Of a stretch of DNA of 64,000 bases, positions 5,726-49,900 are shown piece by piece (the first letter of the stretch is position 1; the number at the start of each line of letters is the position of its first letter). The translations under genes and the position numbers were made by a program. Below the pieces are notes generated by a model. That model was given only the letters and a program-made list of their open reading frames with translations. It was not told where the DNA came from and did no database searches. The stretch spans positions 2,728,501 to 2,792,500 of the forward strand of contig NC_067295.1 of the NCBI RefSeq assembly GCF_020740795.1, written 5' to 3'. Origin of the DNA: Apus apus. Its lineage: Eukaryota; Chordata; Aves; Apodiformes; Apodidae.

Positions 5726-8289
5726 CCCAGCGGTGGCGGGAGCTCATGCTCCAGCCCCGCCAGGACCTTGGGAGACGATGCCCGGCACCGGCACGAGGCG
5801 GTTCCCGGCAGACCGTCCGGCTCCCGACCCCGGGGGGGTATTTACCTGCGCCCGGTGTCGGCGAGGCACGTGCCCGTGCGCGGCTCCCGCGGCCGCCGGT
5901 GTCCCCCGCGGGACATGGCGCGGGGCGGTGGGACGGCGGCCCCGGCGCAGCCCGGCGGGAGCCGCGCGGTGCTGGCAGCCGGGCTGCGGCTGTAACCCAA
6001 CCGCCGGGGCTCGCGGCGGCATCAATAATGCAAGGGATGCTCCGATCCGGCCCCGAGACTTTTCCGAAGGAGCAGGAAAGTGCCCCCCATGGTGGGGAGC
6101 ATTCCCTCGGGGGGTTTGGGGGGGGGGGGGCGGGAGACACGCTGCAGGGGACGGTGCAGAGGAACGGTCACCACCCCAAAACCCGACCCTGCCACCTCCC
6201 TGCGCTCTTCCCTGAGGAATCAGCCTCCTCCTCCAGCCAGCACGGAGGAGGACGCAGCCCAGGGACCCATTTTTCCCCCGCAAAGGCTAAACCAACAGCA
6301 CCGAGAGAGGAGACGACTTTGCAGCACCCAAGGCAACACGCTGTGCCGGCACTGGGAGCACAGCCAAGGGAACACCGTGGAGGAGGAGCCCAACACCAGC
6401 CCAAATCCCACAGCCCTGCTGGGACACAGAGAGGAGCCTGGAGCCCACCAGGGTGCCCCCCTGCCATGCCACGCACATTGTGTGTGTGAAGGTTGCCACG
6501 TCTGGCCACATGTGGCTGGGGAGGGGGCTTGTGTGTGCCACACGTGTGCCCTGTGGCGGTGCCGGCGGCGTGTCTGCACACACACGTGCCCAGGCGCGGG
6601 GTGACTGCATCAAATGTTAATGGGGGGCTGGACTCCTGCTGCTGCAGGCTCATCAAAGTTTAAGCAGCAGCAGTGGGAACTCACTGCCTTGAATGGATCA
6701 TCTGTGGGCAGGGCAGGGGTTCCCTGGGAGTGCAATGGGGACTGGGGCTGTGGGAGAAGATGCCCAGAGCATTCTCTGTCCCTGCCACCCCTGAATGGCT
6801 CCAACCATATGGTTGAGTCAGGAAAAGCCACCGTGCTCCAGGGACACTGCCCTGAGCAGCCCCAGTTCCATGGCCACATCCCAGGGTCATGCCAGGGCTG
6901 GCTGCAGAAAGGGGAGGTTGCTTTGACCACCAAGGTTCTGGTTCACCGTTTCTCACACCCACCCCAGCCCTGCGTGATGTGGGACTGTACCTTTGGAGCA
7001 CCAGCATCAGCAGGGCAGAGCTCCCGGGGCAGCAGCTCAGCCATCTCCTGGCAGCTCTGGGGTCACCATCTGGCCCCAGGTCTCCTTACAGCCTGTTTCC
7101 AGTTACAGCCAGAGTGGAGCCCTGTGCCACTGTGCCATGCCAGCCCCACCACTGCCATGCCTCATGCTCCACGCCCCAGCCCCATGGAGGCAGCCTGGCT
7201 GGCCAAGACACCTCCCAGCTGCAGCATCTGTCATCAGGTGCCACCCCCTTTCCCCATCAACAGATCTGCATCTGTCTCCACTTTCAAATACCTGTGTGTG
7301 GATGGCACAGCTCCAACACAGCTCTCACCACTCCAGCCATGAGCCCCGGGGATGCCAGGAGCACCGGGACAGGCTGGACCCTTCCAGCAACCAGCAATGT
7401 GGCAGCAGCACAGCCCTCCAAGCACAGAGGCAGTAGGGGGTCTCTCCTTGGGCCCCCAAGCACCCATCACACCCCTGAACTGGATATTTTCAACCCCCTC
7501 TAGATCCCTCCCGAACTGGGGACGGGGACCCACCATCTGCCAAGCAACAAGTACCTCGTCCCTGCCTCCCAGCTGCTGCCCAACACCAAGAGCTGCCCAC
7601 AAGGGAGGTGTTATGGGGAGAAGAGAAGCCGGAGCAGATGGTGGAAGCACAGACCGGCTGGGCAGGACACGTCCTGGGCTCAGCACTGGCGTGCACCCAG
7701 GGACGCTGGCTGGTGGCCCCGGAGCCAGGTGACAGCCCCGCGCCATCGCCTCGGCCTGAAGCCAAGCCCAGGGGCCCCACAGAGCTCGGCTGTGGGACCA
7801 GGCAGCTTTCCTGGTGTAAAACAGCCCCCAAAACGTGGGAAGGGGTGGTAGGAGACAGGGGCAGAGGCTGCTGGGGAAGGGAGTGGGTGTGCAGGGGAGG
7901 AAGCTCTTCCCCGGAGGGCAGAGGGAATGCTGGGACTATAGGGAAGATGAGACTCAAGAGAGCGAGAGGTCTAACCAGGCAGGGACAACCAGGGAGGAGA
8001 GAGGACACCGTGCACCCCCACCGGGAGGAGCCAAGCCCCGCGCTGCAGCAATTGCATACAGACCCGTGTCACACACAAAGGTCCCTCCCCACTCCTTCCC
8101 CACTGTGGTCTCCACGAGCCCAAGGGACGTGCCACCCAGCAGGGGACTCACAGCCACTCACCTGGGGTAGCCTAGCTGGCCCGCATGGCACCGGGCCGGC
8201 TCGGTGCTGCCCGCAGCCCCCGGTGCTGCCCGCACCGCGCTCCCGGCCTCGCTCTCCGCCGGGGAGCGTCACTCCCCCGGTAGCCGAGG

Positions 8290-23331: not shown

Positions 23332-26300
23332 TCATCGGAACTCGTAGATAGGAGCACTGTGCTCAGGGACGTGAGTTAAATTCAATGACTGATACCTGGG
23401 AGAGAGGGAAAAGGGAGGCCAGAGGGTTACCTGGAGCAACAGAATTCCTGGAGGACTGATCAAGCAACAGAATTCCTGGAGCACTAACAGGGCAACAGAA
23501 TTCCTGGAGCACTAAGGGCTCCTGCTTGGCAGGTGACAGAGCAGACACTCTGGTGTCTGGCTCTTCCCCCCTCAGGGTCTCGGAGCCCTCTCTGAGGTGT
23601 TCAGGTATCCAGCACCCACAGGGTGGTCCCCAAGCCCTGTGATGACTCCATGTTGTTCCTCATTTCCATTCCTGTGCCTCTCAGCTCCCAGCTCTCAGGG
23701 TGGGCTGACTGTGGTATTTGGACACCTTTTGAAGTTCAGCAGCTTTCATGTTCAAACAGTGTTTGCTACAACTGCAAATTACACTTGGGTCTTTCAAAGC
23801 TTCACTCAAGGGGATCTGTCTGAAAGCCTCTCGGGTACCTTCCCTCTCCCAAGATCTTCCAGCCACCCTATGGATTCCCTGGCTGTGCATGACCAATATC
23901 CAAGGCTGCCAGAGGGAGAAGAGCACTCCACAGCTACCTGTCACATGGCTTAACAAGAAACCAACCCATTCACTTTCACTGTTCCCTGTGTCTTTTACCA
24001 ACACCCCAGGGACTGTGAACTACAAAGCACTGGCCTGAGGGCAGCAACAGCCAAGCTGTAGTATGTGAGAAAGCACCAAGATGTCTCTCAAAGGCCCCTC
24101 TAACAATCTCTAAAGGGCCAAGTTGTGGAAAAGCTCAAAGCTTGACTCACTGAACAAAGCACGACCCCGCGCATGAGTCCTGTCCCCATGGGAGGGCAAG
24201 AGAACAGGAGCCCTGTGAGTGTTTGGGCTGGGGACCAGGGTCCTAGAGGGAGGGACACTTGTGGTGACCCACAGCCAGTGTCTGCACCCCCATGTACCAG
24301 ACCACTCCATCTCCAGACCTCACCTCTCCCCTGCACCACGTCCCCAGCCTCGTTATCCCCAGCCACATGAAAAGGGCAGCACTTGATGAACAGGCTGACG
24401 AGCCTGCTCTGGCCACACAGGGCACACACACCCTGCCCCAAAGTCCAGCCACCAGCCTCAACCTCCTTCCCAGCACAGAGAATCACCACCCGGACACTCC
24501 CAAGGCTGCAAAGAAGCAGAAGAAAGAGTCACTTTGGCTGGTTTGAGGGAGGAAGGAATCTTCTTACCATTCTGAACTCCTATGGTAGTAATAGCCCTCT
24601 ATAGATGCTGCTGACTTCTGGAAGCAGATGTAATAGAAACCAGCAAAGGAAGCACCACTGATGTCCTTGATAGTGTGATCTGGGACTAGGAACTGTTCCT
24701 GCACACAAAACACAGACTGTATCTTTAAATGCTGGGCAAGTGCCACCCCCCCACCCCAATCTGCCCTCCCAGGCTGAGTCCTGGCACCCATGAACACGGA
24801 GGCCTTCCTGGCTGAGCACTCCCTGCACTCACAGCAGCTCAGCCCACAGACCAGGCTGTTCTTTCACCACCTGCCACTGTGGGAATCTCACAGGGAAGCA
24901 GACAACTGGGAACAAAACCGGGTTTAAAGAGTGCATGAGATCAGCTTCAGTTCAACCCCTGCAAACCAGAAGCCAACTGCAAAATCAGAGCTGCCTGGTT
25001 GCTGAAGAGAAGGCTCCAGGGAGACCTTCTTGCAGCCCTTCAGCACCCATAGAGGGCTTAGGGAAAGATGCAGAGGGACTTTTTACCAAGGCCTGTAGTT
25101 ATAGGAGGGGGACTGGTTTCAAACTGCAAGAGGGGAGATTTAAGTATGACATTAGGAAGAAATTCTTCCCTGTGAGAGTGGTGAGACACTGGCCCAAGGT
25201 TGCCCAGAGAAGCTGTGGCTGCCCCATCCCTGGAAGTGTTCAAGGCCAGGATGGATGGGGCTCTGAGCAACCTGGTCTAGTAGGAAGTGTCCCTGTAATG
25301 CAGGGAGGTTGGATCTAGATGGTCTTTAAGATCCTTTTCAACCCAAACCATTCTATTTCCATCCCCCCCAGCAGCTGCCCAAGGCTCATATGAAGAGGGA
25401 GGAATCAATCCAGCTGAAAAGCAGAGAGGTTCAAACACACAGGCCCCACACAGGGACTGGACACACCAACTCTCTCCTACTCTGGCGCATCACCAAGCAA
25501 GATTTTCCTGTTGTGTTTTAAGCCATGGCTGCAGCCCTCAAGGACACAATTAGCTGGCTAGACAGGAGCCACAGTGCAGCATGCAAGTATGCTGGGTTAG
25601 GAAGTTGGTAGGGTGAGTTGTTTCATCAACCCAGAGCAGCTGAAAAAGCTTTCAGGCCCTACAAGCCTCTGTCAGTCGTTTGTAAGCAGCTCATCAGAGA
25701 AGGAGACACATGGAGTTTACCTTCCATCTCATGAAGACATAGTCCCCGTTTTTCAAATCCTCATAATCAAAGTCATCAGAGTTAAATGTTTTTGCATACT
25801 GGTAAAAAGCCTGGAACTTTCCCTGAAACATGAAAAGAAACAGGATGCTTATTCCAGGAGTAGAGATCAGTCATGTCAGCTGTTTTAGGAGGGAACAACT
25901 GCTATGGAACAGGACCTCCCCACTGAAGGGGCTGCTCTTCCCTTGGACCTGTGCTAAACACACCCCAGGACTGGCACAGAGGAGGAAACACAGGACTTCC
26001 AGACACCCAGAGCTATATCCAGTCCAGCTGGAGAAGCTCCTACAATTCCACAGTAAGATACTTTGATAGAAGCACAGTAAATATCCAAGCCTGGCACACA
26101 CCAGCGAAGCTCAAGGCAGGGAGGTGATCAGCTGGGCTGAGGCCCTGATCCAGGGAAAGGTGGCAGCCACACCCCACCCCAAGCAGAGGGCTGAGGTGGC
26201 TGTGATGAGGGTACCCACATCCCTGCACCCTTCTACTGTGTGACAGCCTTCAAACCAGAAGCAGGATGTTCTCCTGGGGAGCTCGAGAGACGAGGATTGC

Positions 26301-30572: not shown

Positions 30573-33500
30573 ATGCGGCCTGGCTGCCCGCGGCTGCTCT
30601 GGGCCCTCTCCCCGCCCGCCCGGCTCCTCCGGCCGCCTCCCGCCGCCGGCAGGGCCCCGGCGGGGCCGGGCGGGGGCCGGGCCTACGCCCCGCCGGCAGG
30701 TGAGGGAGCGCCGGGGCCTCCCATCGCCCTTCAGGGAGGGAGGGTCCCCCCCCGGGCCCCGCGGGGCGCCCCGGGGCGGGGGGATGGGCTCTGCTCCCGT
30801 GGGAACGTGCGGGACGGCGGGGCCGGGCTGCCCAGGGGCTGGGCCTGCCCCTCCTGGGGCTCGCAGCGGGGCTCCCTGCCCGCCCAGGCCGCAGTGCGCG
30901 CGTTCGCTTTTGTGTTTCGGTGGCTTTGAGGGATCGGGGGGGGGCTGGGACCCACCCGGGGCGGTTCAGGCACATTCTGGGCCACGTATCCATCCCCTCC
31001 GCAGATTTTGCTGGAAACGTGTGGGTCTGAGGGCAGTAGAATGAGTCTGGTTCTGCTTGGGGTGAGTCACTGCGGTGCTGGAGCCCCAGCCGTGACTCAG
31101 GGCTCCTCTGGGGCACACACACACCTTCAGCTTTCCACAACAATGTCTTGTTTGCTGAGGCTCTGAAGCTCTCTGGTCGTGCAGCCTGAGCAAATCCTCT
31201 TCCATCTCATCACTGGGAGTGTGCCTTTTTTTTTTTTGGCCTAAAATAACAGACCTGCCTCCTGGCCTGCTTGCTTCACCCTTCAAGAGACAGATTGATG
31301 AGTGTGAGGATTTACAATCCAGCTGCTGTCATCAGGGGAATAGCTTGCAGATTTTTTTTCTGCCTTGTGTGAGAGAGATGAGCCTTTGGCAAGACATGCA
31401 GTTTGGCTCTCAGGTGCTGGGAGTGTGTCAGACAGTGCTGGTAATTCTCAAAACAGAGACCTGCTGTTCCCTTGGGCTCACCTCGATGGTGGAGCAGGCA
31501 TCCTTCTGAGCTGGAGCTGGATCTGTGGGCTGGAAGTGGTTCCTCCCCTGGTGACTCAGTGTGAAGTGTCCTCAACACCATCCAGTCATGAAGCTGCCCC
31601 CGTGGGTGGTTCCTGCCCCTGCTCTGGTGCTTCCAGCAGGTGCAGGACAAAGCAGAGAATGAGCTGGAGACACTGAGGGAGTGTGGGTGAGTGGGTTTGT
31701 CATCGTGGGGATTGGCAGGGAGGTTGCTGAGCCTGCCTTGCCCCCAGCCCACTCTATTGGAATTCTTGTCACTCTGAGACAAAACAGGCAGGGAAAGAGA
31801 TTTAGCCAAGAGGATTCAGGGATTAATTTGTCAAATGTGGTTGCAGCGGGAGAATCTTGAAAGATTGAGCCCAGAGTGAAATTCCAGGAGTTCTGGGACA
31901 GCTCTGCTTTGGAAACCACCCCTGCCAGACTCTGTAGGAACTCGGAACAGGCTGGTTTGAAAGGAGCTGAGAGCCCAGCCTGGCAGAATTGAAGCTGGTC
32001 CCATTCACACAGAACCATCAGGGTTGGAAGGGACCTCTAGAGATCATCTAGTCCAACCCCCTCTGCTAAAGCAGGATCCCCTGGAGCACATTACTCAGGA
32101 CTGCATCCAGGCAGGTCTTAAATGTCTCTAGAGAAGGGGACTCCACAGCCCCCCTGGGCAGCCTGTCCCAGGGCTCTGCCACCCTCACCATAAGGTTCAC
32201 TTGCTGGTTGTGCACAGCAACAAGTTTCTCACCAGTTTCACGGATGAATGGGAAGGACGTTAGTGTTCAGGCCACCACAACAGCACTGAAGGCTCCATCT
32301 GTTCTGGGCTGTGCTGGGAGCTGGGGAAGGAACTGACCCTCCTCTAACTGCCCCTCCCAATGGTCTGTTTCTGCCCCCAGAGAGGAAGCGGTTTTACCAG
32401 AACGTGAGCATCTCTCAAGGGGAAGGTGAGTAGAGCTGCTGGGACAGGATGGAGGGGCTGGTTCCTGGGAGAAGCTTTGTCACCCCATGTTGCTTCAGCC
32501 AGAGCACAGCACACCTGCACCCCAGGCTGTGCCAGTGGGGGATGTTTGTTACCAGCCTCCTGTGCCCCTTCCGTAGCAAAACCACGGGGCAGGAAGCAGC
32601 TTCCAAGACCGAGCGTGTCCAGATGATAAGTGGGAAACCCAAGGATCTCTGGTCCAGTGCTCCCATCAGCCCCGGCTCTGAGTCTGCTCCCGCTGTGGAG
32701 TTGTTGTTCCTTAGTGCTTGCTCCTCTTTGATTCCCCAGGATTTCTACTCTGATTCCCCAGGAGGCTTTGAAATAAACCTGGACCACCGAAAGCTGAAGA
32801 CACCCCAGGCCAAGCTCTTCACTGTCCCCAGCGAGGCTTTGGCCATTGCGGTGGCAACAGAGTGGGACTCCCAGGAGGACACCATCAAGTCCTACACCAT
32901 GCATCTGGTGAGCACAGCAGGCTGGGACACTGAGACCTTGGTGGGGCAGAGTGTGGTGTGTTGGGAGCAGTCAGGTCAAGGAAGTCAGGATTAAAGACAG
33001 GTCTCCAAATGTGGAGAGAACCGGTTGTCCTAATGCCTGTGGAAACGGGGACAAGAGGTCGGGACTTTGGTTAGGGAATGGGAAGAACCTTCCAGGTGTG
33101 AGGGTGCTTAGAGACTGGCTGGGTGGATCTGTGTCACTGGAGGACTTCAGAAGGAGCTGGACAGTGTTATTTGGGGTAGTGAGGGGCAGGAGGAAAGCAG
33201 ATGAGCTCTGGAGCAGTCCATGAGCCCTCTGCTCCAAAGTCTTCTGAAGGCAGAAGATTCTTATGCCACAAGCCATGTGCTGCCCTTTAGATGCACCCCT
33301 GGGTTCTCTGTCTGCCACAAACTCCTCTGCTTCTTCTTGGCCTGGTACAAAGGAAGCTGCTGCTTCCCCAGGCCCTGAGTACCAGCAGTTTCAGGTGCCT
33401 TTATCCCACAGACCACGCTGTGCAACACGGCACTGGACAATCCCACGCAGCGGGACAAAGCACAGCTGATCCGGGCGGCCGTGAAGTTCCTGGAGACAGA

Positions 33501-36443
33501 CACTGTCTGGTACGAGGGGGGCCCTGCTGGTGCAGAGGAGAAGGTCTCTTCTCACCATGTGGTTTTTGGAAGGGTGGCTGGGGGAGGTGAGGGAGGATGT
33601 GTGCTGCAACGCAGTCACGGCAGGGCTCTGGTCTGCCCTGGTTTTGGTCCAAGGGTTTGAATTAGTTTAGGTCAGTCTTGTGTCTGCAAATCTGGTGGAC
33701 ATCTCTGTGCTGGAGAAGGGTGGGGGCAGCAAGAAATAAAAAGATCTCCTTGGGAAAAAGAAAACATCTTTGAAAGGCCAGGGGGAATCTGTCAACCCAG
33801 TCCCTGGTTCTCTCTCCTGTGCCAGTACAAGTAACTCAGGTTACTTGTACCAGCAGCAAAAAGCCCTTTGTTCCTTAAAGTCCCTGTGGGCTGCAGGATC
33901 CAGCCTGCTGATGCCCACGCTCCTGTCCCATAGTCCCAGCCTCCAAGGAGTCCACTGGCAGCTGCTCAGCTCCTGTGGGGAGAGGGGAACAGGACTCTCC
34001 CATCTCCCACTGTGGCTTTGGCAGCTGGGAGTGCTGAGCTGAGCTGCTGGGCAAGGCAGGGCAGGAGTTGGTCCCATATGGGGAATTCAAGTGGGATAGG
34101 ATATGTCCCCTGCTCCAACTGCCAAACCTTGCTGTGACCCGTGGCTGGCTTGGGGCTGCCTGCAATTTCTTGCTGGCCAGTTTGCTGCTCTGTTTTGTAG
34201 TAAGATAGAATTGTCCTTCCTGGAACAGCAAAAAGCTCTGAATTCAGGGAAGAGTGAGGGGGTTGTTCCTGGTCTCTGCTGTCGCTGTCTGGGTGGAGTT
34301 GCTGTGGTTCTGGGGAGGGGGCAGCTTCCTTCTCAGAGGAGTGCCCCAGCAGTCTGGCAGCCTGGGAGTGAACATGCAGTGTGGTTTTGTTCTGCCATGT
34401 CCCAGCTATCGTGTGGAGGAGCCAGCTGCCCTGGCAGAGCTGCAGAGGAATGAATGGGATCCCATTGTTGCCTGGGCTGAGAAGAGGTAAGAGGTTAAGG
34501 ATGTTTCTACTTATGCCCTGTCCTGATGAGGAGCTGCAGAGCTTGTGGCTGTCAGAGCTGCATGGTTCATGAGCCGTGTTCTTTTCTAAGGGGCTGGGTG
34601 ATTGTTCCAGGTACAATGTGACAATTGGCTCCTCAACCAGCATCCTGGGGCCAAACATCCCAGCCAGCACCAAGGAGACCTTCATCAGCCACCTGGCATC
34701 CTACAACATGTGGGCCCTGCAAGGTGAGAGAGCCTGGGGGGATCTTGGTTTCTCTGCATGGGGGAGAAGAGTGACTAATGTTTTTCCTCTCCTGCTGAGA
34801 TAATCAGAGTGTTGAGGTTTATGTTTTTAAACTCCAGACAAGTCCCTTAGCTGTATTTGTTAAGGGCAGGGACTCCTCCTTAGTTCTACTGATGTTCAGG
34901 GTCTGACTGTGCTGCCCTGTGAGCTCTCTGCTCTACCCTAGCACAAATAATTATTGCCAGGCTCTCTAGTGACTTAGTCCCCAGCTTTATTACCAGGAAA
35001 AGAAATGGGGTTTAGCATTCTGACTGTCCCTGGTTCTCACTCTTTCATCCTTATAGCCCACTTGATCTTACCTTATACTGCTCTATGACACCTAAAGGAA
35101 TTAAGTAATGTTTGCTTTGCTGAAGTCCTGAAAAGAAAGACTTGAATAAGCAACAGACAGTGAAACCCACAGAAGATGGGAGCTGAGCAGCTAAGGGCAG
35201 GTATCAGGGACAGGATTCCTGGGACAGGACTTGCAAAGCCTTCCTGGTACCCCTGTAAAGATATTCTTTGATGAATCCTTTTCCTCACAGTTTGTAATAT
35301 GGGTGGGCAGGGTGGAAGGGAATGGCACAGGCCTCCTTTGCACAGGGCAGGTTTGTGGCAGAATCAAAGGTGTAGCCTGGTCACTGTGGTGACAGTGGCC
35401 AGAAGAGCATGTTGTGTCACTGTTAACTGCAGATCTGACTCTGTAAGTGCCCAGATGCAAGTGGAGGTTTCTCTGTCCCTGAGCAGCTCCTGCAGCCTGG
35501 CTGTCTGCTCTGAGCATGTGAAGATGCTGCAGAAAACAACCATAAATCTTGTTTGTTTTGGGTTATTCCCTTCCAGGTATAGAATATGTAATCACCCAGC
35601 TGAAATCTCTGATTCTGTCCATGGGCCTGATTGACAGGCACATCACAGTCGAGAAAGCTGTGCTGCTGTCTCGCTTGGAGGAGGAGTACCAGGTAAATGG
35701 AGCTGCAGAACAGCCCCATCATTCAAGTAGCAATAATCTCAGCATGACAAATGCATCTCCCACCACAAATAACTGGCAAGGGAAGTGCCTCCTATTGCAG
35801 GAGAGGTTCCACTCTGCCAGCTTCCCCATTTGAGAGAGTTTGGAGTGCTCTGCTGTAGAGCAGCTTCATGGGCACAGCAGCCCTGAGTGCTCCTGGGGCT
35901 GCCAGCTTCTTTTTGCAGAACCCAGATGGCTGCTTTTTCTCCCTCTCTAATCTGAAGTGCAAAGTCGTGGCTGGCTTCTCCTGCTGTGGGTTACCCAGCC
36001 TGGAGGCCTTGGTAGACACCAAGCTAATAACTTCCTTGCTGGAAACTAGCCTGGTGTGAAGCTCTCCCTGATCCCAAAAGTGGCTGAAGTTGATGGGAAT
36101 CTTTTTGTCCTCCCTTTAAGCGGCTTTGCCTCAGCCCCCAGTGCAGACGAAGTGTGTCCTTCCACTGAGCTCATCTGCAGATCTCCCTACCCCCATAGCC
36201 AGTGATCGCAGTTCCTGGGGGGAGCTGTGTTTCACAAACATGAAGAGGGAGGCTGGGATCTCCATATAATCCTGTTCTGAGGTGACTGGTGTTCCTCCTC
36301 TCCAGATTCAGCGGTGGGGAAACGTGGAGTGGGCCCACGACTATGACCTGTGCGAGCTGCGTGCTCGTGCAGCTGCTGGGACTCTCTTTGTTCACCTCTG
36401 CTCAGAGAGCTCAACTGTCAAACACAAGCTGTTGCAGGACTGA
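30573..36443 (+). CDS. ATPAF2: ATPAF2, mitochondrial F1-ATPase assembly factor 2 (ATP12) (complete)
   Basis: ATPAF2/Atp12 is a mitochondrial matrix chaperone that holds the F1 alpha subunit during ATP synthase assembly. Eight exons, 30573-30699, 32381-32425, 32762-32907, 33412-33509, 34406-34486, 34611-34723, 35577-35692 and 36306-36443, splice to 287 residues (human 289), all GT-AG with consistent phases. The first 40 residues are Arg/Ala/Pro-rich with no acidic residue, as in a mitochondrial presequence, ending RAYAPPA as in human. Conserved blocks follow: KRFYQNVSI, GGFEINLDHRKLKTPQAKLF, LQRNEWDPI, LASYNMWALQGIEYV, LLSRLEEEYQIQRWGNVEWA and the final STVKHKLLQD. Intron 1 (30700-32380) carries a CR1 fragment at about 32.0-32.2 kb; intron 4 a perfect short hairpin. 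No defect is seen. Confidence 0.97.
32008..32208 (-). mobile_element. CR1 LINE 3' fragment (older subfamily)
   Basis: Antisense, with GGTTGGAAGGGACCTCTAGA followed by the CTGCATCCAGGCAGGTCTTA type of internal sequence, in ATPAF2 intron 1. Confidence 0.9.
33825..33850. repeat. Perfect 11-bp inverted repeat with 4-base loop
   Basis: Arms GTACAAGTAAC and GTTACTTGTAC flank TCAG in ATPAF2 intron 4. Pairing is perfect and stops abruptly outside the arms. No terminal signature of a known element is seen. Confidence 0.9.
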
Positions 36444-36901
36444 GGCTGCTGGGCTGGATGCAGGGGGAGAATGTCCAGCAGTGAACTGCTGGTGTGACCC
36501 AGTGGACAGTGACCACCCTCCTGCCACCACATCCTTCCTGGGATCAGCCTCATGCTGAGGAGCTGCAACTTTGTGGGCAACTCCTCTCCTGGGCTGCCTG
36601 CTGCAGTGCAGTGCCAGCAGTTCTGAGCCCACAAAGAGGAAAGGTCAAGGTGAGCTTCCTCTGCATCCCCAAGACAGCAGCCCTGTCCATTCCTGGTGTC
36701 TGTAACTCATCCAAGGAGCTCCCATGAAAGAAACGGCTTCCTGGGCAGGGCGCGGCACAGACATACCCAGCATATGCCACATGTCTTCATAGCTGCCAGC
36801 TCCTGACACACACTTGTTATGGAAATCTGAAAACAGACTCTATTGCATCTGTTCTTCATCCCTCAGTGTGCCTGTGTGTAACACCAGGGTCTCTCTGCTT
36901 G

Positions 36902-36907
36902 ATTAAA
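36902..36907 (+). terminator. ATPAF2: Poly(A) signal of ATPAF2
   Basis: ATTAAA about 460 bases after the ATPAF2 stop, followed by GT-rich sequence. It is the best signal before the convergent DRC3 3' end. Confidence 0.6.
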
Positions 36908-36929
36908 GGCACACCCCTGTGAGATGCTG

Positions 36930-37825
36930 AAAGCCAATGCTGCTGAGTATTTATTTGTTCTAATCAGCAAAAAGTGGGGTAGGTCCCGAGCTGCCTGGCT
37001 CCAGGCAGGTGCTGGGATGGCTATGGGCAGGAAAAGAGAGCAGAGCTAAGCAGACATTAACTACCAAACAGCTCTGCTCACTCTGCATCTCTGTGAGCCT
37101 CCTGTCCTTGCAGCTGAGGAGGAGAAGGGAGATGTTTGTGCAGTTCTGGAGCAAGAGGGGGGGAACCTGGGCTCCATGTTCAAAAGCACAGGACACTGGG
37201 AGCTAAATCTGTGTGTGACAGGCAGCACCAGCCATGGGGCTTTCAGAGAGGTGCAGTCTCTGCAGCCATCTTCTCATTTAACCTTCCCACCTCTCTCCTT
37301 GCTGCCTGCCTGGACCAGCCCTGCCCCAGCTGGCATCACTCCCCTGGAGCTGCCCACAGGAGAGCACAGAGCTGCTGCCACCCAGCAAGGAGGGATTGAT
37401 GTCTCCTCACTCAGCTGTTGGGAGCAGCAGGGTGTGAGATCCGTGGAACCATTGATTTCCCCTCCTGCAGGCTGGGGGCTGCTCTGCTCAGGCTGCAGAA
37501 AGCTGCTTTTCCAGAGGCCATGAGGAGACAAGGCTCCCAGGCAGGCAGAGCCCCTGCCAGCCTTGTGCTTGCTGAGCTGGAAACCTGCTGTTGTGGATTG
37601 ATGGAGAGAGCTCCTCTCCCATCCTGCTGCCACCTGCCTGCTCATGGGTTCCTGCCCTGGTGCTTCCAGGTACTAAAGCTTTCAGGCATGATGTGCTGCC
37701 ATTATTTGGTTCAGTCAGTTCACAGCTGATCCGTAACCCCTTGTGACCAGGTCTGAGCTATGTCTGCATGGGCTTCACGCCAAGAGCCAGAGCTTCAGAT
37801 GCTTTTTCAGGGTCGTTAAGTATCT
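36930..37825. other. Spacer between convergent ATPAF2 and DRC3 3' ends
   Basis: About 0.9 kb between the two poly(A) signals. Frames are short and unconserved, and no repeat or RNA gene is recognised. Confidence 0.6.
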
Positions 37826-37831
37826 TTTATT
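37826..37831 (-). terminator. DRC3: Poly(A) signal of DRC3
   Basis: AATAAA on the minus strand, about 145 bases after the DRC3 stop. Confidence 0.7.
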
Positions 37832-37976
37832 TGCAGTTGATGGAAGAAGGGTGGCTTTGGCCTGAAATGTCCCAGGCAGCTCAGGCATAGAGAGGCAGTT
37901 GTCCCTCCTGGCTGTGCTGCTGCCAGGGGCTGTCCTGTGTCTCCCATCTAAGGCAGCTGCCCAGGCTGGTGCAGAC

Positions 37977-40900
37977 CTACTCCAACAGGTCCAGCATCTC
38001 CATGGTATGCAGCTCCTCCATGAGATTGTCAATGTACTGAACAATCTCTTTGACACGGTCGCGGTTTCTGTCGATCTCGTCTTGGAAAGCCTGGACAGAT
38101 GGAAACCAAGTTCCAGGCTGGTTTGGGCTAGAAGGGACCTTCAACATCATCTAGATTCCAACCCCCCTGCATGGGCAGGGACACTTCCCACCAGACCAGG
38201 TTGCTCCAAGCCCCATCCAACCTGCCCTTCAACACTGCCAGGGATGGGGCAGCCACAGCTTCTCTGGGGAACCTGTTCCAGTGTCTCACCACCCTCACAG
38301 GAAAGAGTTTCTTCCTAATATATCCTCCAAATCTCCCCTCTTTTAGCTTGAAACCATTCCCCTATGGCCTTGTAGAAAGTCCCTTCCCAAACTTTCCTGT
38401 AGCCCCTTCAGGTACTGGAATCTGCAGCCTTGTCAGGATCCCTGGAGCACAGAGGGCTCCAGCAAAGGTGAGGGAGCATCTTTCCTAGCAGTGTCCCCAC
38501 AGCTTGGGCCAGACCTGCCTGTGCCCTCTGCCCCTCAGCAGGAGGGTCTCACCTTCTCCATGACAGAGCGTTGCCAGCGGTAGGTGCTGCTGCGGATGTC
38601 ACTCTCTCTCTTATAAATCATCCGCAGGCGGATGCTGTGGGACGTGTTGAGGGCGTTGACAATGGTGGTTTTGTCCTTGAGAAGCTAGGAGGGAACATGA
38701 CAGAATGAGAGGGAGCCCCAGTGAAAGCAGCAGAGCTCAGAACTAGCAGCCCAGTGACCACAGTGCTCGGGGGGAGAAAACCAGCCCCTCTTCTCAGACA
38801 AAGCCCCACTCGGCAGGATGAATCCAGCGCTTTGCCCTTTACGGGGATGCGTCCCGGCCTCGCTGTGCTGTAATGGGCCATTATCCCTAGCACGGGTGGG
38901 GAAACTGAGGCAGCACCCTCGGCCTCACCTGCTGGGGCAGGGAGAAAATGGCTGCTGCAGGCAGGGCTGCAGGCAGGGCTGCCTGGCAACGCAGGGCAGG
39001 CTGGTGTTGAAGCAAAACTGCATCTACTCCAGCATGCCTGGCCCAGCGGGTGCGGGAAGTAGAAAAATCACACTTGGAAAGGTCTCTGGCACTAGTGGCA
39101 CTGGCTGTAAATCTTCATTTTTGGAGTGTCCCAGCTCCTAATGGAAGCAGCGACTTCCCTGGTGGCTCTAAAGGGAGGGTGGCTCCGCTAAAGGGTAATG
39201 ACTCTCCTCCTGCAGCCAAGTGCAGCTGTTGAACAAATGAAGATTGCTTCTCGGTGGAGACGGATGGATGGCAGCGAGAAGCGGGTGCAGGGCTGCAGCC
39301 ATCTGCACGGGCTGGAGCATCCCTGGGGCCCAGGGGTCTGGTTTGTGTCTGTCAGCTCTCCATGACCTGGAGTACCGGGGGGCTGGGATAATCCTGGCAG
39401 AGCAAAACCACAGTGAATGCAAAACTGGAGTCATTTAGCCACTAAATGGAGGAATAAGGGAGACGAAAAGGTCAGCAGCAGTGCTGACTGGAGCCCTGCA
39501 ATGATCTCTGTGCTTGCTGAAAGGCTCCTGGGACCTTTGCTATCACAACAAGACTGAGGGCACAGTAGAAGGGGCCATTTGAAATGTCACGTCCTGCCTC
39601 CAGATCAGCCCAAGGGCTGGGGAGCTCCAGGAAGGGCTTTTGAAATCATGAAGGGCAAACAGAGCCCTGGCACAAGGAAGTCAGCGCCGTGTGTGGGTGC
39701 TCCTGGGGGAGCAGGGAGAATCTGAACAGATTGTGCCAGGGGGCTGGGGCTGTCTGGAAATCAGCCAGAGATGTAAGTTGTGCTGGAGGCAGGAGAGAGA
39801 TTTGCTCAGCACCTCTCCTGGGCTGCTGCCACCAGCTCCAGCAGCTCCCAGGGAAACCTGCAGTGCAGTTTCCCTCTGTCCTCATCAGCAGACATGCCTG
39901 GTGGCACTGCGGGTCAGCCAAGCACCTGGGGCCTCTCAAAAGGAGGTTGTGCTCTGGTTTAGCCATGGCTCTAGGGGTGCTGAGGCTCCTGGAAACCCTC
40001 TCCCTTCTGAGAAGAGGCTATGGCCTCCTCTTCTTGCCAGCTCCCTTAGCAGAGATGAATTTTTTGGTGCCCTCACCTCTCGAACACCAGCTGGCAAATC
40101 CTCGTCAAGCTCATTCCTGGCTGATATCTCCAGCATGGTGATGCAGATCTCCAGCAGCTTTTCGTGGTGATGGTTTTCCAGGTCCTGGCACTGGGTCATG
40201 GTACAGAAGACCGTTAAGGAAAAAGTGACCCCATCAGAGGAGATTCAGTGTCCTCCTGTAAGGAGAGACTGAGCATCCACAGAGCCTGCTGCTGCAGGGA
40301 AGAGCCTGGCTGCTGCCAGAAGCTGCTGTGGTGTCAGGATCTTCACTTTCTGCTCTGAATCCCAGCTCACACACATCAGCTCTCATACTCACTGCAATAA
40401 ATTATGCAGAACTGAGAGGTTTGCAAAGGAAATTAAGGGAAGCCTCCCAGGATATAAGCAAAGTTCTACATATGGTGCAATGATTTGCAGCAGGCCAACA
40501 GATGTATATATTTAAGTAGTGTAACCTGTCACTGGAACACTTGAATATTCTCATCTCCCTTTGTTCCAGAAGACATTAACAACACAAAAGAGCATTTAAA
40601 GAAACTTCAGCAAGAATTGTAGGTATTTCTTCAGCTGCTATGGCAAAAACGTACATAGAAACAGTCTAACCAGATCTTCCTAGGGCTGTATCATGGATTT
40701 CTGGAGAAGGAAGATTCCCAAGGGGGGAAAACCTGCCTAAGTCCTACAGACTTTCAGCACAGGAGAACTTAGATCCTTTTGTGCTCTCCTGAGTCTCCAA
40801 AGGAGGAAGCTGGGCACCTTAAATGATCATTCCTGCAAAGCTGGGAAAAGACCTTTTCTGTTGATTAAAAAGCAATAAACCCACCAAATTCTACACTAAT

Positions 40901-43900
40901 GGCTCATGTCTGGATTCAGAGGGGCGAGATACATACCTGCCTGGGAGGTCCAGGCCAACACACTGTCCAAAGGATATAACCCTTTAACATTTTCAATGAA
41001 TGTTGATACTATGGCAGCAATGTTTTCTGCAAACTCTGTTATTAGCTCCTTAAGAGAGGGAAAGGGAGGAAATATTACAATGACATCTTGCATGAACACA
41101 AAAGGGAGGCAGGGAGTCTGGGAAGAATCTACGACTGATTATAATTTGGACTCACTGCTGTTATTAGCCCAGTCAGACATAGAACTGCCTCAAGCATTTA
41201 GAGTGTTTTGAAAGGGCTGTGAGGTTTTCTTTCCTCCTTCAGGGAGAGAAAATCAGAATTAGTTTATGGGAGGGAAGCTGACTGCATGATTCCTTTACCC
41301 AGTGTCTGCAGCAAGACACCTCATCCTTTTTTACCCTCACCTAAGCAGTGCAGGGAGGGTGCTCTGCTCCTGTGCACTGCAGCCTCCTGGTACATATGAA
41401 AAGCCTCTTGTTGGAAGCACAACCAGTGCCTGGGCTTCCTGCAGCTTTTGTTTTAGTCCTCTGAAACTCCAGTTGCTCCTATTGCCTCCCTCAAAAATGG
41501 CTGATGGAGAAATCTGTGAAGTTTTGCACTTAGATGTCTTGATAGTACAGATCAACCCCAGCCACCTGAATCCTGCAGCTCCAGAAGGGCACACAGGGAG
41601 GAAGGTTCCTGCTCATTCCATCAGGGAATACAGACACACAAGGACCAATTCAGAAAACACCAAAAGGCACAATCCTGATGCAGAGAGGAATCCATTTTGA
41701 GCTGCTGCCTTCTGCCACACATTCACAGGAGTGAACTGCTGCATCTGCTCATGCACAGGCCCCAGCCCCTGCCTGCTAATTTTTAAACAGCTTCTTTATT
41801 TATTTTTGAATGAAGATGCACATTAGCAGCCCTGCCCTAGTTTTTTGAGGAAAAGTCTGTGGGGAAAAAAAAAAAAAGGCAGCTATTCCACAAGGAAAGG
41901 CAGTCAGGTGAGCAGGAATGTGTGTAATCTTATTCATAGCAAAGAACAGCTTCAGAGAACTCCACAGGCTGCCCCATGCCATGCAGCCACTCCTGCATGC
42001 AGACCTCTAAAAGGATGGAATGACCTCAAGTCCCTTTCTCTAAAGTTCAGGAAATCAGCTTGGATAGATGGGAAGCACGTGCTGTGCTCTGCTCTGCTCT
42101 GAGAAACAGGAGTGTGTTGGAATGGATCAATGTCCAGGGCCTGATCTCACCCAGATCAACTATGAGCAGAGAAAGAATCAGATGGAGACAAAACAGCCTG
42201 ACTGGAAGAGCTGTGCCCTGCTGTGTGCAATGGGCCACTCAAGAGAGGGGTGTGGCAACAGGAAAATGACCCCCTGGGCTCTGGATGTGAGGTCTCACAG
42301 GGATGTGGTTTAACCCTTACCTCCATCTGGTCAGCTAGCTGCACTTCCAAGGTCATGAGAACTTCTGAGAGCTGCAATATCTCCTCCTTGTACTCAGCTC
42401 GTTTGGATGCAACAAGATCCTGATTCCTGGTGTTATCAATCTCATCCAGCCTCTACACACAGAGATACATAAATTACTGACAGTTTGTGTTCAGAAGTCC
42501 ATTGCCATTTAATTAACTTGTTACATATGTGAGAAAAGTTCCTGCTTGCTGATTAGCTGGAATGAAATGTGATGATTCAGGAAATCTCCAGATTTACATA
42601 CTGGGGAGTCATCAGTGCTGAGGTGTGTGACTGTGCTAACGATCCAGGGGCAGTGCAGAGAAATCCCTGGAAATGCTTCCTCATTCTCCACTCAGCAGGA
42701 GACTTTGCCCCCTTCTATGCTTCCAACTTGGGTTCCCCTTCTAACACTTTTCAAATAAAAAAATTAATATTAGGTTTTTGACATTGCTGGCCATAAAGGA
42801 GAGATGAACAATTATTTGTGGAAAGAAATGCAGGCCTAAATCATCTTCCCATCCCTGAGGTGTTCCAAGGTCAGACTGGATGGGGCTTGGAGCAACCTGG
42901 TCTGGTGGGAGGAGGCCCTGCCCATGCAGGGGGTTGGGACCAGATGATCTTTAAGGTCCCTTCCAACCCAAACCAGTCTGGGATTCTATGATCCTAAATC
43001 CTGATCCTCTTCCTTTCAAGGAGAATCTCGATTGACTTCCATAGGGCCAGGATTTAGGATTCTGAATATGGAATACCTATCACTGCCTGCCTTCCTCTTA
43101 CTGCAAGGATTTATTCCCCTTCAGAATTAAGTATTGACATCAGTTTTGTATCAGACAAGAGTTATGATTTCTTGGATAAAAAGAATTCCTCTCGTGCTGA
43201 GCGATGTGTTAATTCCAAGTTGGTTCAAAATAAGTTAACAATCAAAGTTAACAGGAAGAAAATATATATATATGTTTTAAGATGTCTAATCCACTTCTGA
43301 GAGGGAACAGAATAAAACAGAGAATTCTGACCAAAATAATGGCCAAGACTTGAGTCTGAAAATGGACCTAGGTTACCCAAACTGCACTGTTAACGGGGGG
43401 GAAGGGGAGAGCAAGGTGTCTTCTTTTCTAACATAAACAAGTGAGGAGGACCCACAAGCTGCCCAGCCATTCCAGCCCCACCTCTGGGAGCAGTAACTTC
43501 ACAGTGCAAGGTTTTTAGTGTTTCTTTGCTCCTGAAGCAACTTCAGAGAGCAGAGCTGGTTTACAGGTTGCCCAGGCTCACACCAAAGGGTCACAGAGAG
43601 ACAAACGGCCCCTAAGAATGATTCACAGATTTCAGGCTGCTGGGACCTCTGAACCTTCTGAGCTGCCCCAGACATTTTAAGTGAATGGGGAAATGCTGTT
43701 AAAATAGTTTGGAAACCAAGGCCTCTGGTATTTGTATGAAAATGGAAGTACGAAAGAAAATACATTAAAAACACAAACCAAAATAAAACTAGAAAGGCAC
43801 AGTGTGCTCAGTGTGTGTCCTGTTCTTGCAGCTCAACCTGTAGCTGAGCCTGCAAGTCATAGGACAAAGATGAAGGCCCCAGATCTGCCTTGACTTTGAT

Positions 43901-46900
43901 TTTGGGGTGTTTTTTGTAATTATTTATATTTTTTTGCTTTTATAAAAACAAAATAAAAGGAAGATAGTTGGGAATCCAAGTGCAAATGAGCTGAATATAC
44001 ATCTTAATCTGCAGGTGTTTCCTTCTGCTAAGGCTACAAACTGGTGTCCCAACTCGAGCTGATGTTTGCCATGAGTCAGCAGGTCCAAGGACCCGGGCAC
44101 AGTGACTCAGCAGGTTGGCAGCCTGTGACAAGGGACCTGGACACAAGTGACCTGGTTTGCAAAGGGAGCCAGGGCTCGTGACTCTGCCTGGTGTCAGTTG
44201 TCAGGGCCTTGCTCTGCTCAGCTGACTGTCACCAGGCTCTGCCCCCCCCTTTCTTTTTTTTTTTTCTATGGAAACAAAATCATGATCCATCTATTATACA
44301 CCGTCAGAAAGGGACCCAGCTAGAAGCTGCAGCCCTGGCAGCTACAATGGGTGGCTGCAGTTGAGCAGAATGAAAAAAAAATACAACAGTTTCTGCTTTA
44401 AAAAGACTAGAGATACATTGCAATAACTTTATCTAGTTTTTTGTTTGAGTTCTTTGAGCTGTTGTTGACAAAATGAACTGAAGCAGAAAATAATTTGAAA
44501 ACAAACAAAATACCCTGTAGTTTCCTTCCTTTTCTTCCCAGTTTTCCAATGAAGGAAGAGCTATGGGAAAGCTCAAAGAGAAGGCCAGTGGCATTCCATC
44601 TGATAAATCTCTCCTTATATTTTAAATCAACTTAATAATATTTTAATTAAAAGGAAGCTTCAGGACCTGAAGGGGCTTCAGGAAAGCTGGGGAGGGGCTT
44701 TTTACCAGGGAGGGCAGTGACAGCACAAGGGGCAATGGTTTTAAAATGAAAGAGGGGAGATTTAGGTTAGACATCAGGAAGAAATTCTTCACCATGAGGG
44801 TAATAAGGAGCTGGAATAGGTTGCCCAGGGAGGTTATGGCTGCCCCCTCCCTGGAGGTGTTCAAGGCCAGGTTGGATGAGGCTTGTGCAGCCTAGTCTGG
44901 TGGGAGGTGTCCCTGCTCATGGCAGGGAGGTTGGATCCTGATGATCTTTAAGGTGCCTTCCAACCCAAACCATTCTATCATTCTATGAAAGGTTCAGCAT
45001 TTCCATTTTCTTAAAGACTGGTAACTTTTCTGGATGGCAAAAGGAAAGTAAAAAAAAGAAGCCACCATGTTTAGGCACTTTTTTTCCTGTAAAGCCTTGA
45101 AGGGCCTTTACCTTTGTGGGCAATAAGATAAGACTCTGACATGTTAATTTTGTCCTACTCTGAATTTCCAGTATAAAGGCTGTCAGTGGTAGATGGTTGT
45201 GGTTTGCCCAAAGGGTTGAAATGTAAAATCTGAAAAAACAGAAAACTTTTAACATTATGTTCATGACATTACATGAGCTGGCACAACAGTTTTTCTCAGT
45301 ATAGATTTATACTGCAAGAAATCTGTAAAGAAAGATGAGTGACTGGGCACTGGGAAGGGTTGCCCAGAGAGGCTGTGGAGTCTCCATCCTTCAAAGGCCT
45401 CTGGAAATGGTCCCTGCAGCCTGTTGTGGGTGGCCCTGGGGTCACCTGGCTCCCAGGGGACCAGAATCCAGAGTAATTTTCCTAATTTTCATGGAGTTAC
45501 CCTTGTTCTCAGTGAAACAAAAAGCTGGCATATGATGTAGAGAAATCATGTATCAAACAAAAGAAAACCAACATTACCCTTTTGCTCTCATTTTCAAAGT
45601 CTAGGATTATTTTCTTGCCTTCTTGCTGGTTGGTTGTTAGTACTTCCTGGAGTCTTCCATGGAAATTGGAGACTTCAAATTCTCTTTTTTCATACTCCTT
45701 CAAGCCAAAGTTAAACAGGTTCTCACAAACTGAGACAAACTCCTTCCTGTATGTGACACCAGTCAAGGTATTTACTTTGTCCAGTGTAGCAACGTTCCTT
45801 ATACATCTGCAAATCTGAGCAACCAGAGTTGTGAGGTACCACCATGTCAACTCCACGGCCCTTGCTGGGAGCTGCTGCCAAGTTTTCTGTCTGTGGCAGG
45901 AGTGGGGCACATTTTACACACAGGATTTTGCTGCCTTAAGGATATGGAGAAAGCTGTGGCAACTTGAGGGGGAGTGAAACGCCTTGAGGAACTAAAAATG
46001 AGGAAATACATACACTTCTCTAACTCCTTTCTGACACAGCAGTTGGATGGCTGCTCTCTGCACTCTCTTGAGACCCCACCTGCAGCACTGTGTCCTGTTC
46101 TGGAGCCCTCAACGCAGGAAGGACACAGAGATATTGGAGTGGGTCCAGAGGAGGCCACAGAGATGATCCAAGGGCTGGAGCAGCTCTGCTCTGGAGACAG
46201 GCTGAGAGGGTTGGGGTGTTCAGCCTGGAGAAGGCTCCAGGGAGACCTTAGAGCACCTTCCAGTGCCTGAAGGGGCTCCAGGAAAGCTGGGGAGGGGCTT
46301 GGGACAAGGGCAGGGAGTGTTAAGTCAAGGGTGAATGATTTTAAACTGGAAGAGGGGAGATTTAGGTTGGACATTAGGAGGAAATTCTTTAGTGTGAGGG
46401 TGGTGAGACACTGGAACAAGTTCCTCAGAGAAGCTGTGGCTGCCCCATCCCTGGAAGTGTTCATGCCAGGCTGGATGGGGCTTGGAGCAACCTGGTCTGG
46501 TGGGAGGTGTCCCTGCCCATGGCAGGGAGTTGAAACTGGATGGTCTTCAAGGTCCCTTCCAACCCAAACCAATCTGGGATTCTATGAAGCATACAACCCT
46601 ATCTGTCTTCACAAGTGGGAATGCAGTGCCTGAGTAGTTAATAAATACAGCTCTGGAGCCTACAGCCAGAGCAGAGAATAAACTACTGACTTGGTAGCAT
46701 CACAAAAAATAATGTCAATTTTTCTTCTGCTATTATCTTGACAAAGGAATTGTTTCTGGAGTCCATAGCAGTTAAGCTGTGATGCATTTTCCCCCCACAG
46801 TGTAATGCAATTTTAAGGAAGGTCAAGTGACTGGCCTTGACAATGCTCTATTTGTCTGAATGAGAAAAGAAAAAAGACCCCCCCCAAAAAAAAGTGTCTG

Positions 46901-49900
46901 CTGGCCTGAAAACCTCCCATTGCCAGCCCAGGCAGGTTGTGAGAGATGTAACTCATATCACTCTGATGAGGCTGTTCCTGTTCCTGCCACTTCATTTCAA
47001 CTTGATTTTGCAACAACAGTCGAGCTGACAGAGATTTATCTTGTGGCTCATTTTAAACTTCAAGTGGATTCCAGACTCCAGGAAAGTATAAAGGCTTGAT
47101 TCCTCAAGGGTCAGAAAAGAAGGCTAGGAAATGGTGCTGGGTTCAAATGAAGGAAAAGGATTTGGTGGTTATGAGGGTGAGAATTTATCACGCTGGAATC
47201 TCATGACCTGTTGGCGATGGGAACGAGTGGTTTTTACACATGGGATGTTTCAAGCTGGGTTGGCCAGATCACCAGTAATATAAACCCTTTGTAGCCTCAT
47301 ATTTCATGAGATATCAGGCCTGAAAGCTATCAGTGGTCTCAGGGTTTTGCAATGTTTTTTTTGGTACCATTCCAAAATTGATCAGAAACCATCTCATTCA
47401 GCCCTGGACAAAAGCAATGGATGAAGAGCCCCTGTGGATGCACCTGCTCAGCTCAGGGCATTACCTTTGGCTGCAGGTTTTAACCCCAGGAAGGATATGC
47501 CTGCAGCAGCTCACCCACTTCAGGGAGGTCAGCCAGTGTGGCAGTTTCTGTATCCTCTGCAAACATGTGGTCAAACAGGAACGATCCGTTCAGGTGCTCG
47601 ACAAACGCTGTCTTTGGAGAGAACAGAGCAACAGATGTCAAATAAAGAGTGTCAACCTCCTGCCAGCCCTCAGGATGTGTCTCCTATGAGCATTTGACCC
47701 ACAGGGGTGCAGACACAGTGATACCAACACAATAGATGCACCAACCAAGGCATTAAACCATGGCAGGGGGCTTGGAGCTAGAGGATCTTTAAGGTCCCTT
47801 CCAACCCAAGGTGCTTTATGATTGTGTCAGGGGATGTTTAGATTGGATATCAGGAACAATTTCTTTCCCCAAAGGGTTGTCAGGCCCTGGCACAGGCTGC
47901 CCAGGGAACTGGTGGAGTCACCATCCCTGGAGGGATTTAAGAGCTGTGCAGATGTGGTGCTGAGGGACATAGGTCAGTGGTGGCCTTGGCAGGGCTGGGT
48001 TAATGTTTGGACCTGCTGACCTTAAAGGTTTTTTTTCCAACCAAAACAATTCTTTGATTCTATGAAAGCCCCCTGCAACTGGAGTGAAAACCATCCTGGT
48101 TCTCACATGGCTTTGCTGCTAGAACTCTGTATCCTAAGGACAGAAAACACCATTTTATCCAATATAAAACATTGTCCCATACAGGCTATTGAGCCTTTCC
48201 AATAAGGAGCCAGTGGACTTTGGGAGGGGCTGGAGGGAAGAGCTGCAGGTGTCCTCCTAGTCACTCAGCCCTGCTCTTCAGCAGGTTTGATCTTCCAGAG
48301 GGCTGGAACAATGAGCCAGACCATGACTGAAAGCACCATTCTGCCTGCTCTTGTTCTCAGTCTGCTCACAGGGCTGCAGCCATCTCTGAAAGCCCTGAAG
48401 AGTTTAACCATAAAACTAATGAAAAGCATTAACTTAGTGTGAAGGAGAAAAAACAAGTCAGTGCAGCATGAAAATGCCAACAGCTCCCTCAGACCTCTGA
48501 TTTTCTTAATCTCTTGTCAGGCTGATAAGATCCTTGGGTATGATTTACTGTTTGGCTTTGCAGGGTCCATATCTGTAATTTCATTGTTCAGGCAAAAGAA
48601 TGATGTTCCCCTATGTCACATGTATTCCACAGCAGCTCCTCTTTTCATTCCAAAACTGAGATTTGGAGATCACAGAGATTAATCCCAGCCTCAGTTTAAG
48701 AATAGTTGATGTTAACCTCTCATTAAATCTTCAAGCAGGTAAAAGAGGAGTCAGTATCTGTTGTGCTTCTTTCTCCCAAGACAATAGACAGCCAGGCAAA
48801 GAGAACATACCTGGTGGTATTCCAGCTCTTTCTGCTTTGCTTGTTTTTCCTCCAGCTGGGCCAGGGCCTCAGCCTCCTCCTGCTCCAGCTCCTCAATGCG
48901 ATCGTGATACTTAAAATCTGCAGCTTCTCGCTGAGAAATAGAGAGGAATAAAATATTAGATCATCCAGTTTTGCTCAACAAGTCTGGGCATAAGGATTCA
49001 GTCTTCTAGAAGATGCACCTGAGCGACAGCTGCCTCTCCATTTCTTTGTGGGCTTTCTTATTAAACTACCTGTGAAGTCTCTAACTCATTCCCCATCCCA
49101 GCTTTTGTTGGCATTTTGCTCTGACTCTGCACTCAATCCATCTGAGCTGATTCAGTCTCAGGAAACTTTCCTCTCCCCATTTCCTCATCCTTAGGGTTGT
49201 TTTTTTCTTTTTTTTAGCAGGAGACCCCATTTTGACTTCTAGAATTTCAGCTTAGATTTATTCGTTCAGCTACGAAGTTTAATACATTTACTAGGGAGGG
49301 GAAGGCTCTTCTGAGGAGTGGATGGCAGAGTAGTTAACAGGGGCAAGAACCCTTGAAGCTGAAGCCTGACAAATGGAAGTATGTGATTCTGTGATGCACT
49401 GTCTGTGTGAGCAGGGACTGGCCTCAATGACCTGGGAAGTCCTTCCAGTCCTATGGCAAAAGTGATGTCTATTCCAAGTCCAGCTCCTGCTCTGTGCCAG
49501 GCAAATTTACAATTAATGGTGTTCTTTGGTTACTAAAAAAAAATACAGGGATCCATCTCTCCAGGCTGGTCTCCACTGAGATTTCCTGCTCTCTAAGGAG
49601 GCTCCCACTCAACTGCAGCCTCCCTGTGGTAGGATTACCCAGGCCTCCCTCCCCAACACAGCCACTGATTTTCCCAAAAGCTGGGAAGGCATCATGGCTC
49701 TGCCACCTCTGCCTCTGTCACATCTGATGGAATTTGGCCTGCAAGTTCACAGCTGCTCTGCTGAGGCTAAATAAACACTCCACGTTGCTATAAACCTAAT
49801 TCCTGCAGGGAACCAGCCCCAAATGCTAGAATGTTGCTGGCACACCAAGAAAGCAAATGATCTGCAAGAGGCTGGAGCTCCATTTTCCCAAGCAGGGAAT

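Follow-up and report, generated by a model that had tools for sequence, protein, structure and literature searches.

Two putative U12-type AT-AC introns in the DRC3 gene of Apus apus

DRC3 (LRRC48) is a nexin-dynein regulatory complex gene that is encoded on the minus strand of a 64,000-nucleotide (nt) stretch of the Apus apus genome (assembly GCF_020740795.1, contig NC_067295.1, positions 2,728,501 to 2,792,500). This whole stretch is referred to as the window, and all positions are given in its own numbering. The DRC3 segment 40977-40201 is probably an intron that is removed by the minor (U12-dependent) spliceosome, and a second such intron probably occupies 47498-45753 of the same gene. We place the probability of this reading, which is drawn from sequence, at about 0.95. 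Both segments start with AT and end with AC, carry U12-type splice signals and are bounded by exon ends of a DRC3 gene model. The same genome contains matches to four minor small nuclear RNAs (snRNAs) and to the CCDC84/CENATAC protein. The AT-AC introns of DRC3 are a clear case of a known kind and not a new mechanism.

DRC3 gene model

The DRC3 coding region spans 53998-37977 and reads from start codon to stop codon in 12 exons and 11 introns (9 GT-AG and 2 AT-AC), giving a protein of 522 residues. Most exons were placed by read-through searches against the PDB and one exon by eye from translated frames, and the junctions were fixed by splice signals and reading frame. Some of the read-through scans against the PDB and against Pfam returned no match. 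Intron numbers refer to coding introns only because the gene may have a 5' untranslated exon further upstream. The 522-residue model matches the PDB chains 8j07_3 and 9fqr_Qv of DRC3 at 1.9e-159 and 2.1e-162, respectively, with alignments that extend over 1-521 for 8j07_3 and 7-522 for 9fqr_Qv and whose sole gap is one residue near the N terminus. This full-length and collinear homology, aligned nearly end to end, assigns the locus to DRC3 at the sequence level. An earlier reading of the DNA letters (hereafter the sequence-only reading) had named the same gene, and both the whole model and the peptide joined across intron 9 agree with it.

How many copies of DRC3 does this genome carry? A whole-genome search with the DRC3 protein (1.10 Gb in 110 contigs) returned 14 matches. 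Twelve are the DRC3 exons, and the other two are weak, lie elsewhere and fall in the leucine-rich-repeat part of the protein. DRC3 is therefore single-copy. The same search found no spliced DRC3 retrocopy that would display the junctions, and one scan of viral contigs found no second source of DRC3.

Splice signals of intron 9

Exon 9 ends GAA AAT GTT AAA GGG TT and exon 10 starts C ATG ACC CAG TGC, with the codon at the junction split TT/C. The peptide joined across intron 9 aligns gap-free with chains 8j07_3 and 9fqr_Qv (1.5e-17 and 2.7e-17, respectively). When both ends of the intron are shifted together over 25 same-length positions (-12 to +12), the adopted position is the only one that yields AT-AC, and GT-AG and GC-AG pairs are found at none of them.

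Branch motifs were counted against the nine-letter form TTCCTTRAC. The published consensus for AT-AC U12 introns consists of the 5' site ATATCCTT at +1 to +8 and the branch TCCTTAAC (PMC2831892; this and all further papers are cited from the portions of their text that were available). Intron 9 includes both elements exactly, in the 5' splice site ATATCCTTTG and the branch motif TTCCTTAAC, and scores 8/8 and 9/9. The sequence-only reading had described a near-perfect U12-type AT-AC intron at 40201-40977, and its 5' site, branch and terminal AC are present as described. The terminal AC occupies 40202-40201, where the 3' end reads CTGTAC. The presumed branch adenosine lies 13 nt from the last intron base, and the branch distance of 12 bases claimed previously is obtained when counting starts after the last C of the motif. 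The probability that the 5' 8-mer, the AC and the branch 8-mer coincide at one fixed intron 9 junction by chance is 5.8e-11, as calculated with a first-order Markov model using the composition of 36001-48000, with 8 offsets permitted for the branch 8-mer.

A second AT-AC intron

DRC3 appears to hold a second AT-AC intron of the U12 type, which was unreported in the sequence-only reading and whose branch site is, by its sequence, weaker than that of intron 9. The last bases of exon 6 are GAG CTG CTG CAG GC, and intron 6 opens with ATATCCTTCC at 47498. The 3' end of intron 6 reads TACCTTGACTGGTGTCAC (last base 45753), after which exon 7 starts A TAC AGG AAG. The joined peptide GELLQ-A-YRKEF aligns gap-free with both DRC3 chains. 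Protein alone would let the ends of intron 6 slide by a few bases, and when 19 positions that keep the intron length are compared (-9 to +9), the adopted one alone is AT-AC, with no GT-AG and no GC-AG pair. Pyrimidines account for 10 of the 20 bases before the 3' end.

Two further motif occurrences within intron 6 were set aside. An additional exact ATATCCTT at 45945 (minus strand), 193 nt from the 3' end of the intron, has no supported exon before it and was assigned no role. It is dismissed because a third donor beside two real ones fits chance (mean of 0.2 donors per shuffle in the control described below). A role for the combination TTCCTTAAA...AC at 46820-46800 was rejected, as no exon is supported there. 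Intron 6 also contains, at approximately 46060-46590 on the minus strand, a fragment of a long interspersed nuclear element, which we take to be CR1-like. The fragment probably explains a 244-residue open frame at this place, for which no Pfam match was found.

Comparison across DRC3 introns and with chance

The same counts were applied to all 11 coding introns of DRC3 and set introns 9 and 6 apart from the rest. At the U12 5' site, both introns score 8/8, whereas the other nine introns score 2-5 of 8. The best branch match is 9/9 in intron 9 and 8/9 in intron 6, compared with 5-7 of 9 in the other nine. Against the U2 5' site the order is reversed, with 2/8 for both AT-AC introns and 5-7 of 8 for the others. 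Position +5 is C in introns 9 and 6.

Scanned strictly for exact RTATCCTT, the window contains four sites, all on the minus strand. Three of them are located at homology-set exon ends, namely those of the two DRC3 introns and of one intron in a DRG-family gene, and the fourth is the site at 45945. When the 16,022-nt DRC3 gene was shuffled 1000 times with dinucleotides preserved, the 9 observed donor/branch-AC pairings, which include unused combinations, were never matched (0/1000; mean 0.16), and the three observed ATATCCTT donors were matched in 3/1000. The five branch-AC sites taken alone are unremarkable (51/1000).

Minor-spliceosome components and proposed splicing pathway

The genome contains matches above the Rfam cut-offs for U12 (145.1 bits), U6atac (4 matches, the best at 135.5 bits), U11 (102.3 bits) and U4atac (86.7 bits), and two matches above the cut-off for the CCDC84 (CENATAC) family. 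Duplexes with the genome's own RNAs were predicted at -9.0 and -5.8 kcal/mol for U12, -6.5 and -6.2 kcal/mol for U6atac, and -5.3 and -5.6 kcal/mol for U11 (introns 9 and 6, respectively). As raw energies, these predicted duplexes lend weak support to a U12-type assignment, and the best U6atac duplex on intron 6 is shifted.

Following the established pathway of minor splicing, U11 would pair with the ATATCCTTT donor, and U12 would pair with TTCCTTAAC, leaving the branch adenosine bulged. U6atac would then occupy the 5' site, and ligation would take place at the nearby AC. Splicing at these bases would be performed by the minor spliceosome with the help of CENATAC, and a full DRC3 mRNA would need two AT-AC removals among nine GT-AG ones.

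Alternative readings

Several observations weigh against the assignment of introns 9 and 6 to the minor spliceosome. Alternatives to the two junctions were taken from the 40 best-ranked pairs for intron 9 and from pairs within 45 nt of the length in the model. For intron 9, at least four other same-length, stop-free pairs occur within 60 nt of both ends. Intron 6 has a same-length GC-AG pair, 47560/45815, within 75 nt. The branch site of intron 6 is imperfect, and its adenosine lies 10 nt from the last intron base, slightly below the optimum of 11-13 nt (PMC3584512). The best predicted U6atac duplex on intron 6 sits at CCTTCCT, off the donor core. Intron 9 has pyrimidines at 15 of the 20 positions before its 3' end, as in its U2-type neighbours (12-20), whereas the textbook U12 intron shows no distinct polypyrimidine tract. 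In addition, the PHB2 intron described below escaped, at both ends, a motif scan that required a donor of at least 8/9 and a branch distance of 9-16, and was recognized instead by reading exon boundaries; scans of this type thus produce false negatives.

The rival pairs differ from the adopted junctions in what they do to the protein. In intron 9, the GT-AG pair 40961/40185 puts GLYPLDS in place of GFMTQCQ, where the PDB chains read SLMAQCR, and the GC-AG, AT-AG and second AT-AC pairs (Table 1) replace more conserved residues than the GT-AG pair does. The GC-AG pair of intron 6 swaps out a long conserved stretch. The sequence-only reading had claimed that its intron 9 junction alone keeps the protein gap-free. 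That junction is indeed gap-free, but the claim of exclusivity is too strong because other same-length, stop-free junctions exist, even though they ruin conserved residues.

Could intron 9 be an ordinary U2-type GT-AG intron whose U12 motifs arose by chance? Such an intron would run from donor 40961 or the stronger-looking donor 40936 to acceptor 40185 or 40191, and we consider it very improbable. The 40961/40185 pair preserves frame and length, and a pyrimidine-rich stretch lies upstream of 40191/40185, but this pair gives the divergent peptide described above and its donor, AGT/GTGTTG, is poor. Donor 40936 reads CAG/GTATGT, yet when it was combined with 31 AGs at 40101-40412, a single acceptor (40121) gave an in-frame and stop-free product, at the cost of conserved residues. 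Moreover, a perfect donor and branch would be found at homology-defined ends by chance with a probability of about 6e-11. The odds are slimmer still that the major spliceosome removes these introns despite their AT-AC ends, as it does the U2-type AT-AC introns of sodium-channel genes. Introns of that type exist (PMC2831892), AT-AC termini are common to both groups, and the 3' end of intron 9 is pyrimidine-rich. However, the sodium-channel introns have G at +5 in the same source, whereas both DRC3 introns have C at this position, contain a U12 branch motif and fit the U2 donor at 2/8 positions.

A combination of the two spliceosomes is compatible with removal of intron 9 by the minor spliceosome, and we rate it as unlikely but less so than either of the preceding schemes. 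The minor spliceosome would make the main product, and the decoy donor 40936 would give rise to a minor U2-type product, mostly under weak minor splicing. A good decoy donor is available 41 nt into intron 9, and after depletion of CENATAC, 92% of A-type minor introns were retained or gave way to splicing at alternative major sites (PMC8280824). Against this scheme, 30 of the 31 decoy products shift the frame or meet a stop.

Comparison with known AT-AC introns

PHB2 has an AT-AC U12 intron in the fly, and its human ortholog is U12-type (PMC2831892). As a positive control, the PHB2 gene of this genome shows ATATCCTGCT...TTCCTTAAT...AC at an exon boundary: the exon ends ATAAKM, followed by ATATCCTGCT, and TTCCTTAATTTTTGCTCCCCTGTAC stands directly before LGEALSRNPGY. 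The known intron thus lies at the expected place, with signals weaker than those of DRC3. The PHB2 and DRC3 introns are alike in their AT-AC ends, ATATCC donor and TTCCTTAAY-like branch. At the one PHB2 boundary examined, the PHB2 intron differs in its phase (0), its weaker donor ATATCCTG and its branch distance of 17 nt, as counted by eye. The DRC3 introns also resemble the CENATAC-dependent A-type (AT-AN) minor introns (PMC8280824) in combining AT-AC termini with U12-type signals, and the present genome has CCDC84-family matches; DRC3 is, for its part, a motile-cilium gene.

Most minor introns are single, and a gene that has any carries one or two of them (PMC6865273, PMC8034651). The two minor introns proposed for DRC3 would sit at the top of this usual range and not be without precedent. 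They interrupt codons 274 and 400 of the model, each in phase 2, in agreement with the known bias of U12 introns against phase 0 (PMC7367187). The sequence-only reading had called AT-AC introns a small minority of U12 introns. They are a minority, but the statement needs scaling, given that they account for 18% in chicken (PMC7367187) and 24% in human (PMC8280824). Our literature search found, among the matches listed, no paper that links DRC3/LRRC48 with U12 introns, although entries in U12DB, MIDB and IAOD may well exist; the sole co-mention of DRC3/LRRC48 and U12 terms, PMC9979489, is unrelated as far as its available text goes.

Implications for gene models and motile cilia

The junctions FIENVKG-F-MTQC and GELLQ-A-YRKEF would be useful corrections to DRC3 models because gene finders easily misplace AT-AC introns. 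The warning in the sequence-only reading that intron 9 would be mis-annotated is plausible, since the U2-like decoy donor CAG/GTATGT sits 41 nt inside the intron.

CENATAC promotes the splicing of AT-AN minor introns, and its depletion affected 92% of A-type introns (PMC8280824). The prediction is that, if DRC3 behaves likewise, loss of CENATAC should raise the retention of both AT-AC introns. Mice with a mutated Lrrc48 (DRC3) develop hydrocephalus and defects of laterality (PMC4978901), so DRC3 could plausibly connect defective minor splicing with the motility of cilia. A much stronger proposal would be that AT-AC minor splicing acts as a double gate on DRC3, which would make its functional mRNA, and so ciliary beating, unusually sensitive to minor-spliceosome or CENATAC activity and would tie motile-cilium phenotypes of vertebrates to defects in A-type minor splicing. 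We regard this proposal as doubtful, with only about one chance in eight. With its two proposed AT-AC minor introns, this ciliary gene offers a specific, testable target.

Feature coordinates and neighbouring genes

Table 1. Positions of DRC3 features, alternative splice-site pairs and neighbouring family matches in the window
Feature	Position	Strand	Details
Coding exon 6	47499-47611	minus	113 nt; ends GELLQ + GC
Coding intron 6, AT-AC, putative U12-type	45753-47498	minus	1746 nt, phase 2
Intron 6 5' splice site ATATCCTTCC	47489-47498	minus	8/8 against published ATATCCTT
Intron 6 putative branch motif TACCTTGAC	45762-45770	minus	8/9 against TTCCTTRAC; 6/8 against TCCTTAAC letter for letter
Coding exon 7	45578-45752	minus	175 nt
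Coding exon 9	40978-41048	minus	71 nt; leaves TT of the split codon
Coding intron 9, AT-AC, putative U12-type	40201-40977	minus	777 nt, phase 2
Intron 9 5' splice site ATATCCTTTG	40968-40977	minus	8/8 against published ATATCCTT; 9/9 against RTATCCTTT
Intron 9 putative branch motif TTCCTTAAC	40213-40221	minus	includes published TCCTTAAC exactly
Decoy U2-like donor CAG/GTATGT	40935-40936	minus	41 nt inside intron 9
Intron 9 alternative pair, GT-AG	40961/40185	minus	
Intron 9 alternative pair, GC-AG	40925/40149	minus	
Intron 9 alternative pair, AT-AG	40934/40158	minus	
Intron 9 alternative pair, AT-AC	41001/40225	minus	
Coding exon 10	40077-40200	minus	124 nt
DRG-family MMR_HSR1_Xtn	within 14860-53998	minus	family match; 1 of 2 matches above cut-off
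GID4-like Vac_ImportDeg	near 24564-24704	minus	family match
ATPAF2-like ATP12	near 32755-32919	plus	family match

The genes in 14860-53998 follow the order DRG-family, GID4-like, ATPAF2-like and DRC3, and the same neighbours are presumably found at human 17p11.2. The GC-rich left end of the window contains two long open frames, counted stop to stop, at 2374-4698 (minus strand, 774 residues) and 4566-6215 (plus strand, 549 residues). Neither has a Pfam match at 0.001, and the frames reflect either a large GC-rich exon or chance.

The PDB matches of the DRG-family gene are to ribosome-interacting GTPases 1 and 2 and do not tell the two apart; we take the gene to be DRG2, also in view of its neighbours. 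At 15324-15129 on the minus strand, this gene contains a probable U12-type intron with GT-AG ends, in which GTATCCTTTC is followed by GGCCTTGAC and, after 15 nt, by AG, with a branch match of just 7/9 to TTCCTTRAC.

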